Below are positions 21,843 to 26,873 of a stretch of 64,000 nt of DNA, piece after piece. The translations under genes and the position numbers were made by a program. Source of the DNA: Shinella zoogloeoides. GTDB lineage: Bacteria > Pseudomonadota > Alphaproteobacteria > Rhizobiales > Rhizobiaceae. Position 1 is the stretch's first letter. Every line of letters starts with the position of its first letter. The notes under the pieces are model-generated. The model did no database searches. It had not been told where the DNA came from and saw only the letters and a list, made by a program, of their open reading frames with translations. Where the stretch lies: positions 1 to 64,000 of the forward strand of contig NZ_QNUJ01000015.1 in NCBI RefSeq assembly GCF_003574625.1, written 5' to 3'.

Positions 21843-22736
21843 TCAAGCTGATGTCCGCCGCGATGTCGCTAGGAACCCGGAGATGAAATCGACGGCCTCG
21901 TCGCCGCTTCTCAGGCCGAGATGAATGCTCTTGGCTATTCCGATCTTCCCGATCCGGACCGCACATACGCCTAGCTCGGCTGCCTCCTGGCGAACGAGCC
22001 AGCTCGGAATGGCGCTGACGCCGCGACCTGCTGCAACGAGCTGAAGCATCATCTCCGTGGTCTCGACATTTCGGTGGTGTCGCGGGCGGCAGTGGGCGGG
22101 AACCAGGAATTGCGTGAACACATCCAGCCGCTCCGGCGGCACCGGATAGGTGAAGAGAGTTTCCTCCAGCAGATCCGCAGGTTCGGCATGGTCCTTGAGC
22201 GCAAGCGGGTGATCCGTCGGTACGGCGAGTATGAGTTCATAATCAAACACCGGCAGATAGTGGATGCCCGGCGCCTCGATCGGGTCCGGGGTGATCAGGA
22301 TATCGATCTCGTATCCTGCCAGCGCCGCAACCCCGCCGAAGGCAAACGATGTCGTCAGCTCCAGGTCGACGTCCGGCCAGTCCACCAGGTAGGGTTTCGT
22401 GACCCCCATCAGCCATTGGTGGCAGGGATGGCATTCCATGCCGATTTTGAGCGAGCCCCGCTGTCCCTGGCGGTAGTCGGACAAGACGTCTTCGGCCCTC
22501 TCCATCTGGGGCAGAACGCGTTGCGCCAGTCTGACGATGTAGCGGCCGGCCTCGGTGAGGCGAAGATTGCGTCCGTCCTTTTCCCACACGGCGACGCCGT
22601 AGCGCTCTTCGAGCTTTCGGATCGTGTGGCTGAGCGCGGACTGGGTCACATTCAGCCGTTCCGCCGCCGCCGTCAGGCTGCCCATGCGGTCGACTTCGCG
22701 CAGGATCGACAGATGTTGTCTGTCCAGCATGCTCAT
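21843..22736 (-). CDS. MetR-like LysR-type regulator
   Basis: This 297-residue LTTR has the N-terminal winged helix DRQHLSILREVDRMGSLTAAAERLNVTQSALSHTIRKLEERYG. Its effector domain resembles MetR closely: GMECHPCHQWLMGV (compare IECHSCIQWL in E. coli MetR), the PIEAPGIHYLPVFDYELILAV stretch, and the ETLFTYPVPPERLDVFTQFLVPA segment. MetR uses homocysteine as coinducer and activates methionine genes. Here its start overlaps the thioesterase stop by ATGA, so it is cotranscribed from the cobalamin riboswitch leader. Probable targets are the divergent mesX and mesD. Confidence 0.85.
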   Translation of the reverse strand: MSMLDRQHLSILREVDRMGSLTAAAERLNVTQSALSHTIRKLEERYGVAVWEKDGRNLRLTEAGRYIVRLAQRVLPQMERAEDVLSDYRQGQRGSLKIGMECHPCHQWLMGVTKPYLVDWPDVDLELTTSFAFGGVAALAGYEIDILITPDPIEAPGIHYLPVFDYELILAVPTDHPLALKDHAEPADLLEETLFTYPVPPERLDVFTQFLVPAHCRPRHHRNVETTEMMLQLVAAGRGVSAIPSWLVRQEAAELGVCAVRIGKIGIAKSIHLGLRSGDEAVDFISGFLATSRRTSA

Positions 22737-23569
22737 GCCCTCCCTTGTTCGAGGGCAACGGCTGTATCATGGACAGGAACCGGCCGGTGGTCCTTGTCGA
22801 TTGCCACCATGCTGAAGCGCCCCGTGGCTGTAACGTGCCGCTCGCCCGTCAGCAGGTTCTCGGACCAGAGTTTTGTCTCGATGGACATGGAACTGCGGCC
22901 GACGCGCTCGACGCGTGCCTCCGCCTCGACGATTTCACCGATCTCGATTGCCCTTGCAAAGTCGATGCGCTCGGACGATGCCAGCACCACCAGCTTGCCG
23001 GAATGGCGCGACGCTGCAACGAAAGCGGCCTTGGTCATGTAGGCGATTGCCTCGCCTCCGAACATCCGGCCGGCGCTGTTTGCCTGATCCGGGAAGACGA
23101 TATCGACCATCGTGACGGCCTCGCTCGGTTCCGGTTCCTCAGCAGGTAGGAGTTCGGGCAGGCCATAGCGCGCCGCATCCTCGCCTTCGGGTATGGCGAC
23201 CATGTGGAAGATGCCGCGCGTGCAGGTGTGCCGCTTGCGGCCGACAATGGTCTCCGCCGCCATTTCCACCTCGACGGTCAGGGAACGGCGCCCGGCCTTG
23301 ATGGGTATCGCCGTGAATTCCACGATGTGCCCGATGCGTGCGGGCTGCTTGAAAGCGATGCGTTCGCAGGAGGCGGTCACGAAGGGCGCCCGGCCGAAGC
23401 GGGTCGCCGCGATGAAGGCGACGCGGTCCATGAGGGCAAGGCCGGTTCCCCCGAAAAGGGTGCCGTGATGGTTGGTATCTCCGGGAAAGACAATGTCGAC
23501 AAGACGGGTTGTCGGGCCGCTCCGGGCGGGCTTTCCTGTCGTCGTGGTCTCTGTCATCGGCGCTGCCAT
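22733..23569 (-). CDS. Tandem-hotdog acyl-CoA thioesterase
   Basis: Two repeated hotdog domains (residues about 15-125 and 150-270) each contain the YciA/ACOT pattern: DIVFPGDTNHHGTLFGGTGLALMDRVAF, then SCERIAF, and DIVFPDQANSAGRMFGGEAIAYMTKAAF, then SSERIDF. The protein is 278 residues from ATG 23569; ATG 23557 (MTETTTTG) is an alternative. Such enzymes hydrolyse acyl-CoA to CoA and acid. Its 5' leader contains the cobalamin riboswitch, and it ends in an ATGA overlap with the MetR-like gene. Why a thioesterase is under B12 control is unclear. Confidence 0.85.
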   Translation of the reverse strand: MAAPMTETTTTGKPARSGPTTRLVDIVFPGDTNHHGTLFGGTGLALMDRVAFIAATRFGRAPFVTASCERIAFKQPARIGHIVEFTAIPIKAGRRSLTVEVEMAAETIVGRKRHTCTRGIFHMVAIPEGEDAARYGLPELLPAEEPEPSEAVTMVDIVFPDQANSAGRMFGGEAIAYMTKAAFVAASRHSGKLVVLASSERIDFARAIEIGEIVEAEARVERVGRSSMSIETKLWSENLLTGERHVTATGRFSMVAIDKDHRPVPVHDTAVALEQGRA

Positions 23570-23612
23570 CAGGTTGCGGCAGGGCAGGACATGACGCAGA
23601 GACGACGGCACG

Positions 23613-23639
23613 GGAGTACCGACGCGAAAGCGGCACTCC
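23613..23639 (-). promoter_or_regulatory. Hairpin between riboswitch and thioesterase start
   Basis: On the minus strand, GGAGTGCCG and CGGTACTCC form a nine-pair stem with one G-U pair. It lies 32 bases after the riboswitch and 44 bases before the start. It has no U tract, so a translation or Rho-related expression platform is more likely than an intrinsic terminator. Confidence 0.5.
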
Positions 23640-23670
23640 GGGACACCCCGCCCGTGGACGTTATCTATCG

Positions 23671-23853
23671 CGGCAGGTCTCCTGGCTTGCGGGTCGTTGC
23701 TTCCGTCCGTCTTCCCGAGAAACGCCTCAGTGACATGAATGGACTTTCGCTCGCCGCTTACAGTTGCGGGGGCAGCTTCGGATTCGGGCCATGCCCTCAC
23801 CGAGATTCCCTCTTAGCTCCGGACTTTCGCCCGCAGAACCACGATAGGGAACC
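23671..23853 (-). promoter_or_regulatory. Cobalamin riboswitch
   Basis: The minus strand shows the conserved class I elements in order. GGTTCCC opens the 5' half. GGAGCTAAGAGGGAATC, GAATCCGAAGCTG, then CCCGCAACTGTAAGCGG form the core. A CATTCATGTCACTG segment and CTCGGGAAGACGG follow. The B12 box AAGCCAGGAGACCTGCC closes it. Length is about 183 nt. It is followed by a hairpin (23613-23639) and the thioesterase start codon at 23569. Class I cobalamin riboswitches normally lower expression when adenosylcobalamin is bound. The element sits in the leader of the thioesterase-metR operon, not of the divergent mesX. Confidence 0.95.
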
Positions 23854-23998
23854 AATGTCGCATGACGGCGAGAGGGTCAAGGCGCGTGTCACGTGAATGT
23901 GCCGGAGATGTCCATCGCGCTGAAGCCTGCCTCCTTGAAGCCGCGGCTCATGCCCACGGCATTGCGAATTCTGGCCGGGGGGAGCGTTGCGCAGAACC

Positions 23999-24013
23999 AT
24001 GAGCATGTCTCAT
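23999..24013 (+). promoter_or_regulatory. Candidate LysR-type box upstream of mesX
   Basis: ATGAG-CATGT-CTCAT is a perfect 15-bp dyad with the T-N11-A spacing of LTTR sites. A second dyad, AGCATG-TCT-CATGCT (24002-24016), overlaps it. It lies in the divergent intergenic region, 179 bp before the mesX start codon and 146 bp from the riboswitch 5' end. Confidence 0.45.
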
Positions 24014-24134
24014 GCTTCAATGAGATAAAACCATTTTTTGCCAATGCTTTCGTCAGCTACATAGCACGCACCGCCGTTAGCTTCAGAGAGTACGAAGACT
24101 GCTGACTGAGAAAACCGGAAAAGAAGATTGGAAG

Positions 24135-24181
24135 CCCTGATTATCGGAAAAAAGATACAGGGTTTTTCTCGGAAATCAGGA
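24135..24181 (+). promoter_or_regulatory. Alternative stems in the mesX leader
   Basis: CCCTG (24135-24139) pairs with CAGGG (24158-24162) followed by TTTTT, a terminator-like shape. CCTGATT (24136-24142) instead pairs perfectly with AATCAGG (24174-24180), part of the ribosome binding site of mesX. The two stems exclude each other. Three copies of a CGGAAA-AAGAT motif also lie here. Confidence 0.4.
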
Positions 24182-24191
24182 TACGATCGCG

Positions 24192-25175
24192 ATGAAAAAC
24201 GATTTTACATTTACGATAAAGAGTATTTCCTTCGATGAGGATTATTCCCCATCGGAAAATACACGGATCACGACCAATTTTGCCAATTTGGCCCGAGGGG
24301 AAAGCCGCCAGGAAAACCTGCGCAACGCCTTGCGGATGATCGACAATCGTTTCAACGCCCTGGCGCATTGGGATAACCCCAACGGCGACCGGTATTCCGT
24401 CGAACTCGAAATCATTTCCGTCGAGATGAACATCGACGCGGGGGGCAAGAACGAAGCCTTCCCGTTGATCGAGATCTTGAAAACGAACATCGTTGATCGA
24501 AAGACGAACGAGCGCATTCAGGGCGTTGTGGGGAATAATTTCTCCTCTTACGTGCGGGATTACGACTTCAGCGTCTTGCTGCCGGAGCACAACAGGAACC
24601 GCCCCGAATTCAGCACGCCGGAGAATTTCGGCGAGCTGCATGGAAACCTGTTCAAGGGCTTCCTGAATTCAGAGGCCTATAAAGAGAATTTCCATAAGCC
24701 GCCGATTATCTGCCTGAGCGCTTCCAGCAGCAAGGCCTATCATCGGACTGACAATCATCACCCCATACTGGGTGTCGAGTATCATCAGAGCGAGTTCTCC
24801 CCGACCGACCAGTATTTCAAGAAAATGGGCCTGCAGGTTCGCTATTTCATGCCGCCGAACAGCGTTGCGCCGCTGGCGTTCTATTTTCTCGGCGACCTGC
24901 TTGGCGATTACACCAATCTCGAGCTTATCAGCACCATCAGCACGATGGAGACGTTCCAGAAGATCTACCGGCCCGAGATCTACAATGCCAATTCTGCCGC
25001 GGGCACCTGCTATCAGCCGAACCTGAAGCACTCGGATTATTCATTGACGCGCATTGTCTATGACCGGGAGGAGCGCAGCCGCCTGGCTGTTGAGCAGGGA
25101 AAGTTCGCCGAAGAGCATTTTATCAAGCCATACAAGACCATTCTCGATCAATGGTCTGCCAACTGCGTTCTTTGA
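24192..25175 (+). CDS. mesX: DUF1852 protein MesX, partner of core methionine synthase
   Basis: This 327-residue soluble protein starts MKNDFTFTIKSISFDEDYSPS and matches the DUF1852 family in length and in the segments TRITTNFANLARGESRQENL and HWDNPNGDRYSVELEIIS. DUF1852 (MesX) is required with MesD for folate- and cobalamin-independent, oxygen-dependent methionine synthesis in aerobic bacteria (established for other species). It is followed 27 bp later by mesD, the expected pair. The start has CAGGAT as ribosome binding site, inside the alternative leader stem. Confidence 0.9.
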   Translation: MKNDFTFTIKSISFDEDYSPSENTRITTNFANLARGESRQENLRNALRMIDNRFNALAHWDNPNGDRYSVELEIISVEMNIDAGGKNEAFPLIEILKTNIVDRKTNERIQGVVGNNFSSYVRDYDFSVLLPEHNRNRPEFSTPENFGELHGNLFKGFLNSEAYKENFHKPPIICLSASSSKAYHRTDNHHPILGVEYHQSEFSPTDQYFKKMGLQVRYFMPPNSVAPLAFYFLGDLLGDYTNLELISTISTMETFQKIYRPEIYNANSAAGTCYQPNLKHSDYSLTRIVYDREERSRLAVEQGKFAEEHFIKPYKTILDQWSANCVL

Positions 25176-25202
25176 CGAACGGAAAATACAAGGTCGCCTG
25201 CC

Positions 25203-26231
25203 ATGAAAAAACTGTTGCCCACTTCCACCGCCGGCAGCTTGCCGAAGCCCTCCTGGCTTGCGCAGCCCGAGACGCTCTGGTCCCCCTGGAAATTGCAGGA
25301 CGAGCAACTGACGGAGGGCAAGCAGGACGCCCTGCGCTTGTCTCTGGACGACCAGCGGCAGGCCGGCATCGATATCGTCAGCGATGGCGAGCAAACGCGC
25401 CAGCATTTCGTGACGACATTCATCGAGCACCTCGACGGCGTTGATTTCGAAAAACGCGAGACCGTTCGAATTCGCGATCGCTACGATGCGAGTGTCCCGA
25501 CGGTCGTCGGCGCCGTATCGCGCCAGAAGCCGGTTTTCGTTGAAGACGCCAGGTTCCTGCGCCAGCAGACGAAGCAGCCGATCAAGTGGGCGCTGCCGGG
25601 TCCGATGACCATGATCGATACGCTTTTTGACGACCACTATAAAAGCCGCGAGAAGCTGGCCTGGGAATTCGCCAAGATTCTCAACCAGGAAGCTAGGGAA
25701 CTGGAGGCCGCCGGCGTCGATATCATCCAGTTCGACGAGCCCGCATTCAACGTCTTCTTCGACGAGGTGAACGACTGGGGTGTCGCCACCCTGGAAAAGG
25801 CGATCGAAGGCCTGAAATGCGAAACCGCCGTGCATATCTGCTACGGCTACGGCATCAAGGCCAATACGGACTGGAAAAAGACGCTGGGGTCGCAGTGGCG
25901 GCAATACGAGGAATCGTTCCCCAAGCTGCAGAAATCCAGCATCGGCATGATCTCTCTGGAATGCCACAACTCTCATGTTCCAATGGATCTGATCGAGCTG
26001 ATCCGAGGCAAGAAGGTGATGGTCGGGGCCATCGACGTGGCAAGCAATACCATCGAGACCCCGGAGGAAGTTGCCGCCACGCTAAGGAAGGCCCTTCAAT
26101 TCGTGGATGCCGATAAGCTTTGCCCCTGCACCAATTGTGGCATGGCGCCGCTGTCTCGCCGCGTGGCAAGGGGCAAGCTGCAGGCCTTGAGTGCCGGCGC
26201 GGAAATCGTCCGAAAAGAGCTGTCCGCCTAG
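25203..26231 (+). CDS. mesD: Core methionine synthase MesD (MetE C-terminal-like, folate-independent)
   Basis: At 342 residues this lacks the N-terminal half of MetE (about 750 residues). It keeps the catalytic barrel: LPTSTAGSLPKP at the start, IDIVSDGEQTRQHF, the LPGPMTMIDT stretch, and IIQFDEPAF. Likely zinc and homocysteine ligands are His211 and Cys213 (VHICYGYG), Glu253 (SLECHNSH) and Cys312 (CTNCGMAPLSRRVA). MesD transfers a methyl group to homocysteine without methyl-folate or cobalamin but needs MesX and oxygen. It directly follows mesX on the same strand. Confidence 0.9.
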   Translation: MKKLLPTSTAGSLPKPSWLAQPETLWSPWKLQDEQLTEGKQDALRLSLDDQRQAGIDIVSDGEQTRQHFVTTFIEHLDGVDFEKRETVRIRDRYDASVPTVVGAVSRQKPVFVEDARFLRQQTKQPIKWALPGPMTMIDTLFDDHYKSREKLAWEFAKILNQEARELEAAGVDIIQFDEPAFNVFFDEVNDWGVATLEKAIEGLKCETAVHICYGYGIKANTDWKKTLGSQWRQYEESFPKLQKSSIGMISLECHNSHVPMDLIELIRGKKVMVGAIDVASNTIETPEEVAATLRKALQFVDADKLCPCTNCGMAPLSRRVARGKLQALSAGAEIVRKELSA

Positions 26232-26242
26232 TCTGGACGATC

Positions 26243-26257
26243 TCCCGGCCACCGGGA
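26243..26257 (+). terminator. Short hairpin after mesD
   Basis: TCCCGG-cca-CCGGGA is a perfect six-pair stem 12 bases after the mesD stop. There is no T tract, so termination is doubtful. Confidence 0.25.
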
Positions 26258-26357
26258 TGCGTAATCCCCGGGCGTGCCGGGGCGCATTGCATATGAACAG
26301 TGGACACTGCGTGACCGCCTCGGTTGCGCGCGTACCAAACGCACCTGAGAGGCCGAC

Positions 26358-26873
26358 ATGGGCATGGTGGACCACCGCTTCGACATTGTGGACAAGGCCG
26401 CGTTTCGCAGCGGTATGTCGCGCCTCGGCTCGGCGGTCAGCATCGTTACCACGAAATCTGGCGGCGAGCGCTACGGGTTTACGGCCTCCGCGGTCTGCAG
26501 CGTCAGCGATACGCCGGCAACGCTTCTCGTCTGCATCAATCGTGCGAGTTCGTGTTTTCATGCCTTCGAAAGCGCGCGCCATTTCTGCGTCAACACGTTG
26601 ATGCCGGGCCAGGAAGACATCTCTGACGCCTTCGGCGGCAAGACGCCGGCAAAGGACCGATTTGCGCTTGGCGAATGGGGAGAGGGCCTCACGGGTATCC
26701 CGGTCCTGGCCAATGCCTCGGTCAGCTTCGAATGCGAACTTACCAATGCCGTGGACGAGGCCACCCACCGCATCGTCTTCGGGCGCATAATCGATATTCG
26801 TGAGAACGAGGAACGGGCGACACTGCTGTACTGCATGCGTCGCTATCTTGGCGCCTGGGCCCGGAATCTTTGA
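26358..26873 (+). CDS. Flavin reductase family protein
   Basis: This 171-residue protein has the FMN-binding split barrel features: FRSGMSRLGSAVSIVTT at the start, YGFTASAVCSVSDTPATLLVCINRAS (flavin phosphate binding), and HRIVFGRIIDI at the C-terminus. Family members pass electrons from NAD(P)H to free flavin, which oxygenases consume. Its place 126 bp after mesD suggests that reduced flavin feeds the oxygen-dependent MesX/MesD reaction; this is inference. A GAGAGG site precedes the ATG. Confidence 0.85.
   Translation: MGMVDHRFDIVDKAAFRSGMSRLGSAVSIVTTKSGGERYGFTASAVCSVSDTPATLLVCINRASSCFHAFESARHFCVNTLMPGQEDISDAFGGKTPAKDRFALGEWGEGLTGIPVLANASVSFECELTNAVDEATHRIVFGRIIDIRENEERATLLYCMRRYLGAWARNL

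Follow-up and report, generated by a model that had tools for sequence, protein, structure and literature searches.

How could a cobalamin riboswitch govern a cobalamin-independent methionine synthase whose genes are transcribed away from it? The question is raised by a 64,000-nt stretch of the Shinella zoogloeoides genome (Rhizobiaceae; assembly GCF_003574625.1, contig NZ_QNUJ01000015.1, positions 1 to 64,000; hereafter the window), in which such a riboswitch heads an operon of an acyl-CoA thioesterase gene (TE) and a metR-like regulator gene on the minus strand, and mesX, mesD and a flavin reductase gene run divergently on the plus strand. The answer that we consider likely is an indirect circuit in which the riboswitch controls MetR and MetR controls mesX-mesD (mesXD), giving an AND gate of low cobalamin (vitamin B12) and high homocysteine. 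The initial annotation had predicted a cascade from B12 through MetR to mesXD, and as a prediction it gains support from the retention of the riboswitch with metR in all 13 loci that share this arrangement (layout A, below).

In the proposed circuit, the cobalamin-bound riboswitch would block the start of the TE-metR message, most likely by preventing its translation, with metR following TE through translational coupling. A drop in cobalamin would allow MetR to be made; at the same time the cobalamin-dependent methionine synthase MetH would stall and homocysteine would build up, so that MetR would come to carry homocysteine, bind tandem boxes upstream of mesX and activate the mesX-mesD-flavin reductase genes, whose products make methionine without folate or cobalamin. 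The OFF sense of the switch, its action on translation, co-activation by homocysteine and activation rather than repression by MetR are the steps that we infer. In other species homocysteine is a co-activator of MetR, whose motif is ATGAA-N5-TTCAT, according to the available text of PMC4239095.

The riboswitch and the operon it heads

Both arms of the locus proved to be as the initial annotation described them. The whole cobalamin riboswitch model RF00174 (positions 1-189 of 189) matches at 23655..23858 on the minus strand, with 131.3 bits against a gathering score of 31.5 and an E value of 9e-33, placing an aptamer at the head of the TE-metR operon. The first gene, TE (22733..23557, minus strand), encodes a two-hotdog acyl-CoA thioesterase by its profiles and by a solved relative (2gvh, AGR_L_2016p, E 3.6e-150); it most likely starts at the ATG at 23557, and at its stop side, 22733, the stop codon shares an ATGA overlap with the start of the gene for the MetR-like LysR regulator (21843..22736, minus strand, by family profiles). 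This overlap and the MetR-type boxes described below go beyond the earlier description. On the plus strand, mesX (24192..25175; PF08908, 634 bits) is followed by the core methionine synthase gene mesD (25203..26231; NF006589, 708 bits, cut-off 392) and by a RutF/HpaC-like flavin reductase gene (26358..26873, by family profiles), and it is the adjacency of a PF08908 gene to a MesD-type core synthase gene that identifies the pair as MesX-MesD.

The riboswitch and the regulator gene lie on the same strand, in the order TE and then metR, and in three layout-A loci (L020, L021 and L128) the riboswitch stands directly before metR. Just 5′ of the aptamer, a TTGACC (23875..23880, minus strand) that is invariant in all 13 layout-A loci is a possible -35 element of the riboswitch transcript; a sigma-70 consensus scan of 23500-24250 found no promoter. 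Folding and alignment outline an expression platform at 23558..23654 (minus strand), consisting of a hairpin with a GCGGGG loop and then structured RNA up to the TE start codon. This loop and a CCCCGC in the aptamer, related by complementarity only, are both invariant in 13/13 layout-A loci, and their predicted pairing would correspond to the L5-L13 kissing loop. Because a search of 23500-24250 gave no intrinsic terminator on the strand of the riboswitch, control on translation appears more likely than control on transcription. A terminator as the platform was considered and rejected, the sole terminator-like site being on the plus strand, with 0.8 such sites expected by chance. The start region folds at -45.9 kcal/mol (z -2.8), with the TE start codon paired in the minimum-energy fold and unpaired in the centroid.

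The regulator and its candidate boxes

The regulator combines a LysR helix-turn-helix domain (PF00126) with a substrate-binding domain (PF03466), and we call it MetR-like because it scores below the NCBIfam equivalog cut-off for MetR. Its nearest solved structures by sequence are 4ab5 and 4ab6, which are listed as LysR-family regulators and which we take to be Neisseria MetR; 5fo5, listed as a MetR domain, also matches.

Between riboswitch and mesX the 13 layout-A loci share little sequence beyond the TTGACC and one block upstream of mesX, which begins ATGAR-N5-CTCAT and fits the published MetR motif. The 15-mer ATGAR-N5-YTCAT occurs within 500 nt of mesX in every layout-A locus, compared with 37 of 1600 segments of 500 nt drawn at random from the 80 named mesX loci that we collected (the best 80 of 586). 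In the window it matches at one place, box 1 (ATGAGCATGTCTCAT, 23999..24013); a probable box 2 (ATGAGATAAAACCAT, 24020..24034), 21 bp away, is weak in the window, and its counterparts in L126, L127 and most loci of layout C (below) come nearer to the consensus. The full 15-mer occurs at six places in the 5.4-Mb genome, where a backward control pattern occurs at none, and of the 80 named loci, which come mainly from beta- and gammaproteobacteria, 45 have it upstream of mesX. The idea of MetR as a regulator of many targets was dropped on these counts, one of the six genomic 15-mers lying before mesX, one before a LysR gene and four within frames, as judged by mechanical frames of at least 80 amino acids. 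The 15-mer before the LysR gene (G000:C21:411021-411035, locus L161) stands 14 nt ahead of the start of that other regulator frame.

Layouts among relatives

The comparison of mesXD neighbourhoods that the initial annotation had suggested drew on the 80 named loci, on the 24 of 394 family genomes that carry mesX, and on 4 of 61 relatives. Rfam models were run on 18 of the named loci and the remaining 62 were scanned by a B12-box pattern, in which the absence of a riboswitch is weak evidence since the pattern missed the riboswitch of L018. The 36 alphaproteobacterial loci with a whole mesX fall into four layouts, and the riboswitch-metR order was found in 13 of them. These form layout A (the window, L123, L124, L125, L128, L011-L015, L020, L021 and L024), with the riboswitch on metR, with or without TE, divergent from mesX. 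Layout B (15 loci: L129, L130, L133, L134, L137, L139-L145, L018, L030 and L041) has the riboswitch directly on mesX and no metR beside it. In layout C (six loci: L131, L132, L135, L136, L138 and Bosea L028) metR adjoins mesX and neither gene has a riboswitch, and in layout D (L126 and L127) MetR is encoded elsewhere in the genome with no riboswitch near it. The window's own genus holds both riboswitch designs, genome G013 having layout A and G005 layout B, and the named loci closest to the window's mesX, within the best 80 of 586, are from Rhizobium.

Some sequences stand apart from these counts. L126 and L127 duplicate L017 and L016, respectively, so each pair enters the counts as a single locus; L017 (JAHREI010000005.1) is titled Bacillus subtilis SK6B4, is the same place as one in the alphaproteobacterial genome G718 and carries Pseudochrobactrum-like mesXD, so its label looks wrong. 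Genome G561 was left out of the 13, its 3.4-kb contig (L119) ending within mesX; there, by pattern only, a B12 box lies directly before metR, and two boxes lie 21 bp apart. Genome G017 was likewise left out of the layouts: about the last third of mesX is present (L146, 7001-8849) beside a full-length mesD match and a flavin reductase; the genome lacks MetR, and the L146 stretch shows no riboswitch.

When a looser box, TGA-N7-TCA, is sought within 400 nt of mesX, it is found in 13/13 loci of layout A, 6/6 of C, 2/2 of D and 0/15 of B; the strict 15-mer is found in 13/13 of A, in 1/8 of C and D together, and in 0/15 of B. A genome-wide search for MetR (E <= 1e-25; 25 genomes, without the named B loci L018, L030 and L041) gave 5/5 for layout A, 5/5 for C, 2/2 for D, 0/12 for B and 0/1 for G017, so that the boxes accompany the presence of MetR across the 24 searched genomes that have a whole mesX. 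The sequences agree with the predicted step from MetR to mesXD to this extent: boxes precede mesX where the genome or neighbourhood has MetR, and loci with a riboswitch on mesX itself lack them. In this set cobalamin thus appears to control mesXD either directly (layout B) or through MetR (layout A), with no locus having both.

Weighing the circuit

Several observations weigh against the circuit or narrow what it can explain. The layout-A riboswitches group together in a single clade (96/90), and on the MesX+MesD tree the branches with good support hold one independent contrast between MetR and a mesX riboswitch (five when all branches are used). In that tree a clade (93/94, short of the star) unites layouts A, B and D with the Bosea locus; the remaining layout-C loci group with beta- and gammaproteobacterial sequences. 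Because there is one clade of layout-A riboswitches and one well-supported contrast, the exclusion does not represent many events, and the sequences suggest a conserved pattern of single origin rather than one often repeated. Layouts C and D have MetR without a riboswitch, and Bosea L028 has the same divergent metR as layout A without one. The best NCBIfam family of the regulator is MetR, yet it scores 196.6 bits against a cut-off of 382. A CbiC/CobH-type gene in the host suggests that it may make its own cobalamin, which calls into question when the switch would be used. A TE gene stands behind a riboswitch, matched by Rfam, in the absence of metR in L204, where the order is riboswitch-TE-riboswitch-nrd. 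Finally, L147 (4704-7618) holds a riboswitch-metR pair with no mesX in the stretch, which the simple logic leaves unexplained.

L147 came from wider sampling, in which a close MetR was found in 6 of 385 genomes of the class (own included), with a riboswitch in the stretch around it in none of the five others, and in 7 of 397 genomes of the order (own included), with a riboswitch in one of the six others, L147 itself. In that locus a small frame precedes metR, and a gene with a homocysteine S-methyltransferase domain (metH type) follows it.

The rival that survives best, and one that we still regard as unlikely, is that the riboswitch serves TE, with metR as a passenger and mesXD answering to homocysteine alone. 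Layouts C and D would suit it, as would the TE homologues found beside cobalamin riboswitches without metR, both in L204 and, by B12-box pattern, in the metE-TE operons of L205-L209. Against it stands the fate of TE within layout A. The gene is whole in nine loci (counted from the conserved start, 273-278 amino acids long, with 274 in the window), but its body is gone in four of the 13 (the sisters L020 and L021, L128 and L011), where riboswitch, start region and metR all stay. From the conserved start these four loci retain frames of 23, 23, 26 and 103 amino acids (L020, L021, L128 and L011, respectively), each with its stop a few bases at most from where metR starts, so that the riboswitch-controlled start is kept next to metR. 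By their places in the tree the losses look like three separate events, L128 being poorly placed. Because the shortened frames still reach metR, they give the strongest hint that metR is the maintained target and that control is exerted on translation. The fragment L119, with its pattern-matched B12 box directly before metR, also speaks against the rival, as do five of the 11 TE homologues outside layout A (L198-L202), which have no strong riboswitch in the 1.5-kb flanks searched (a weak one, of 46.7 bits, lies upstream in L198).

It is less probable still that the MetR-like protein does not act on mesX and that the boxes bind another LysR regulator. LysR boxes are short and the protein falls below the NCBIfam cut-off for MetR, but the boxes fit ATGAA-N5-TTCAT and go with the presence of the protein in 24 genomes, and the solved relatives of the regulator include the MetR domain 5fo5. 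Least credible is an ON switch, or a switch whose main effect is on the divergent mesX transcript, through antisense or read-through: the divergent layout and, in the available text of PMC9943018, an antisense cobalamin riboswitch on the regulator PocR speak for it, but here the riboswitch transcript runs away from mesX without overlap, and relatives carry riboswitches of this family on mesX itself and ahead of metE and nrd genes, positions in which OFF is the sensible sense.

The thioesterase as a probable second payload

To return to the indirect circuit through MetR, the thioesterase also has a history of its own. Among 346 family genomes 14 carry a homologue, and 11 of these fall outside layout A. 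In L205-L209 the order is a B12 box, metE or a MesD-like match, TE, a second B12 box and nrd genes. The first boxes are pattern matches, and the second were found by Rfam in L194-L197, which are short versions of L206, L205, L207 and L208. NCBIfam identifies metE in L205 and L208; in L206 and L207 metE is a candidate from the weak MesD-like match, and in L209 metE reads as two frames and two other genes follow TE. We had entertained TE as a pure passenger, leaning on the loss of its body in 4/13 loci, and dropped the idea given the homologues in metE-TE operons beside B12 boxes. TE appears to have belonged to the B12-shortage response for a long time, and its recurrence beside B12 riboswitches suggests that the TE-metR operon probably carries two payloads. 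As a side observation, nrd genes with a B12 box adjoin mesXD/metR or metE-TE in L204-L209, L020, L021, L124, L125 and L128, resembling an island of B12 independence.

The riboswitch itself hints at the same connection. In ungapped comparisons of the 60 nt after the B12 box, layout A shares a mean identity of 88.5% with the TE riboswitch of L204, 77% with metE riboswitches, 58% with those before nrd genes and 50% with those of layout B; the layout-A riboswitch may therefore derive from a metE/TE riboswitch. In the riboswitch tree the sister of the layout-A riboswitch was not resolved. The co-transcribed thioesterase would probably be a second B12-shortage gene, and it is a speculative suggestion that it frees coenzyme A trapped in acyl-CoAs left uncleared by stalled B12-dependent mutases. 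As a tentative proposal, to which we give somewhat less than even weight, the whole would be a Rhizobiaceae module for B12 shortage, in which a sense riboswitch over MetR and TE, re-used from metE-TE, replaces the direct riboswitch that sister lineages have on mesX, methionine synthesis free of folate and cobalamin requires low B12 together with high homocysteine, and the thioesterase relieves the acyl-CoA burden behind stalled B12-dependent mutases.

The host genome

The reliance on MetH that the initial annotation assumed fits the host, whose genome has a MetH activation domain in a 1287-amino-acid frame and no MetE above the cut-off; mesD itself gave the sole match. By the one marker found, the CbiC/CobH-type gene, a cobalamin route is probably present, and there are two matches to the methylmalonyl-CoA mutase family. 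Three other riboswitches score above the cut-off: one lies before an nrdE/nrdF-type reductase operon, one before a FecCD transporter gene and one before a gene for a GbcA-like Rieske oxygenase, the last being a weaker match (64.8 bits; L155, 6660-6852, plus strand). Cobalamin riboswitches also precede Rieske oxygenase genes in L138 (2889-3075, minus strand), L141 (11408-11622, minus strand) and L147 (7775-7976, plus strand). The oxygenases of L155, L138 and L147 resemble the glycine betaine monooxygenase GbcA at 511-542 bits, below its cut-off of 670, and the L141 enzyme shares 70% identity with the oxygenase of the host.

Relation to known systems and significance

TfoY is another regulator under riboswitch control. 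In its available text, PMC9430930 describes nupR of Bacillus thuringiensis, a transcription factor gene whose leader contains a sense riboswitch, as is proposed here for metR; that system differs in its guanine ligand, its GntR-family regulator and its mechanism of premature termination. The Listeria PocR system, as far as PMC9943018 is available, likewise sets a cobalamin riboswitch over a transcription factor, but the riboswitch is antisense at the 3′ end, serves B12-dependent enzymes and follows the opposite logic. Cobalamin riboswitches placed directly on isozymes of B12 enzymes (PMC3766115, available text) let B12 shut off the B12-independent substitute, as layout B would on mesX; unlike those regulons, the operon in the window puts the riboswitch at the head of an activator operon and not of the enzyme genes.

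The target genes and their regulator also have precedents. The same enzymes, with a nearby flavin reductase, are described for MesD/MesX methionine synthesis in the available text of PMC7857596, from whose main text the word riboswitch is absent. In its available text, PMC4239095 predicts MetR control of PF08908-metE2 in other Proteobacteria and reports alphaproteobacterial MetR only for Rhodobacterales. Its MetR regulon resembles the present locus in having a MetR box before mesX-mesD and metR divergent from the B12-independent methionine synthase, and differs in that no cobalamin riboswitch on metR is named. Nor, in their available text, do PMC3228920, PMC8620254, PMC11841063 and PMC12013260 name one, and the open-licence literature, among the matches listed and as far as its text is available, names no cobalamin riboswitch on metR or mesX. 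Riboswitch-controlled regulators are already known, then, and a sense cobalamin riboswitch on MetR is not named in the accessible text of the literature searched.

If the circuit is real, a vitamin-sensing RNA would act through a transcription factor in an order for which the published regulon study, in its available text (PMC4239095), has no MetR. The two designs also form a natural comparison, in which the vitamin would govern a shared set of enzymes directly in some species and via an activator in their relatives, and which lets the benefit of an extra regulatory layer be tested. In addition, it would bring a little-studied thioesterase into the response of these bacteria to B12 shortage.

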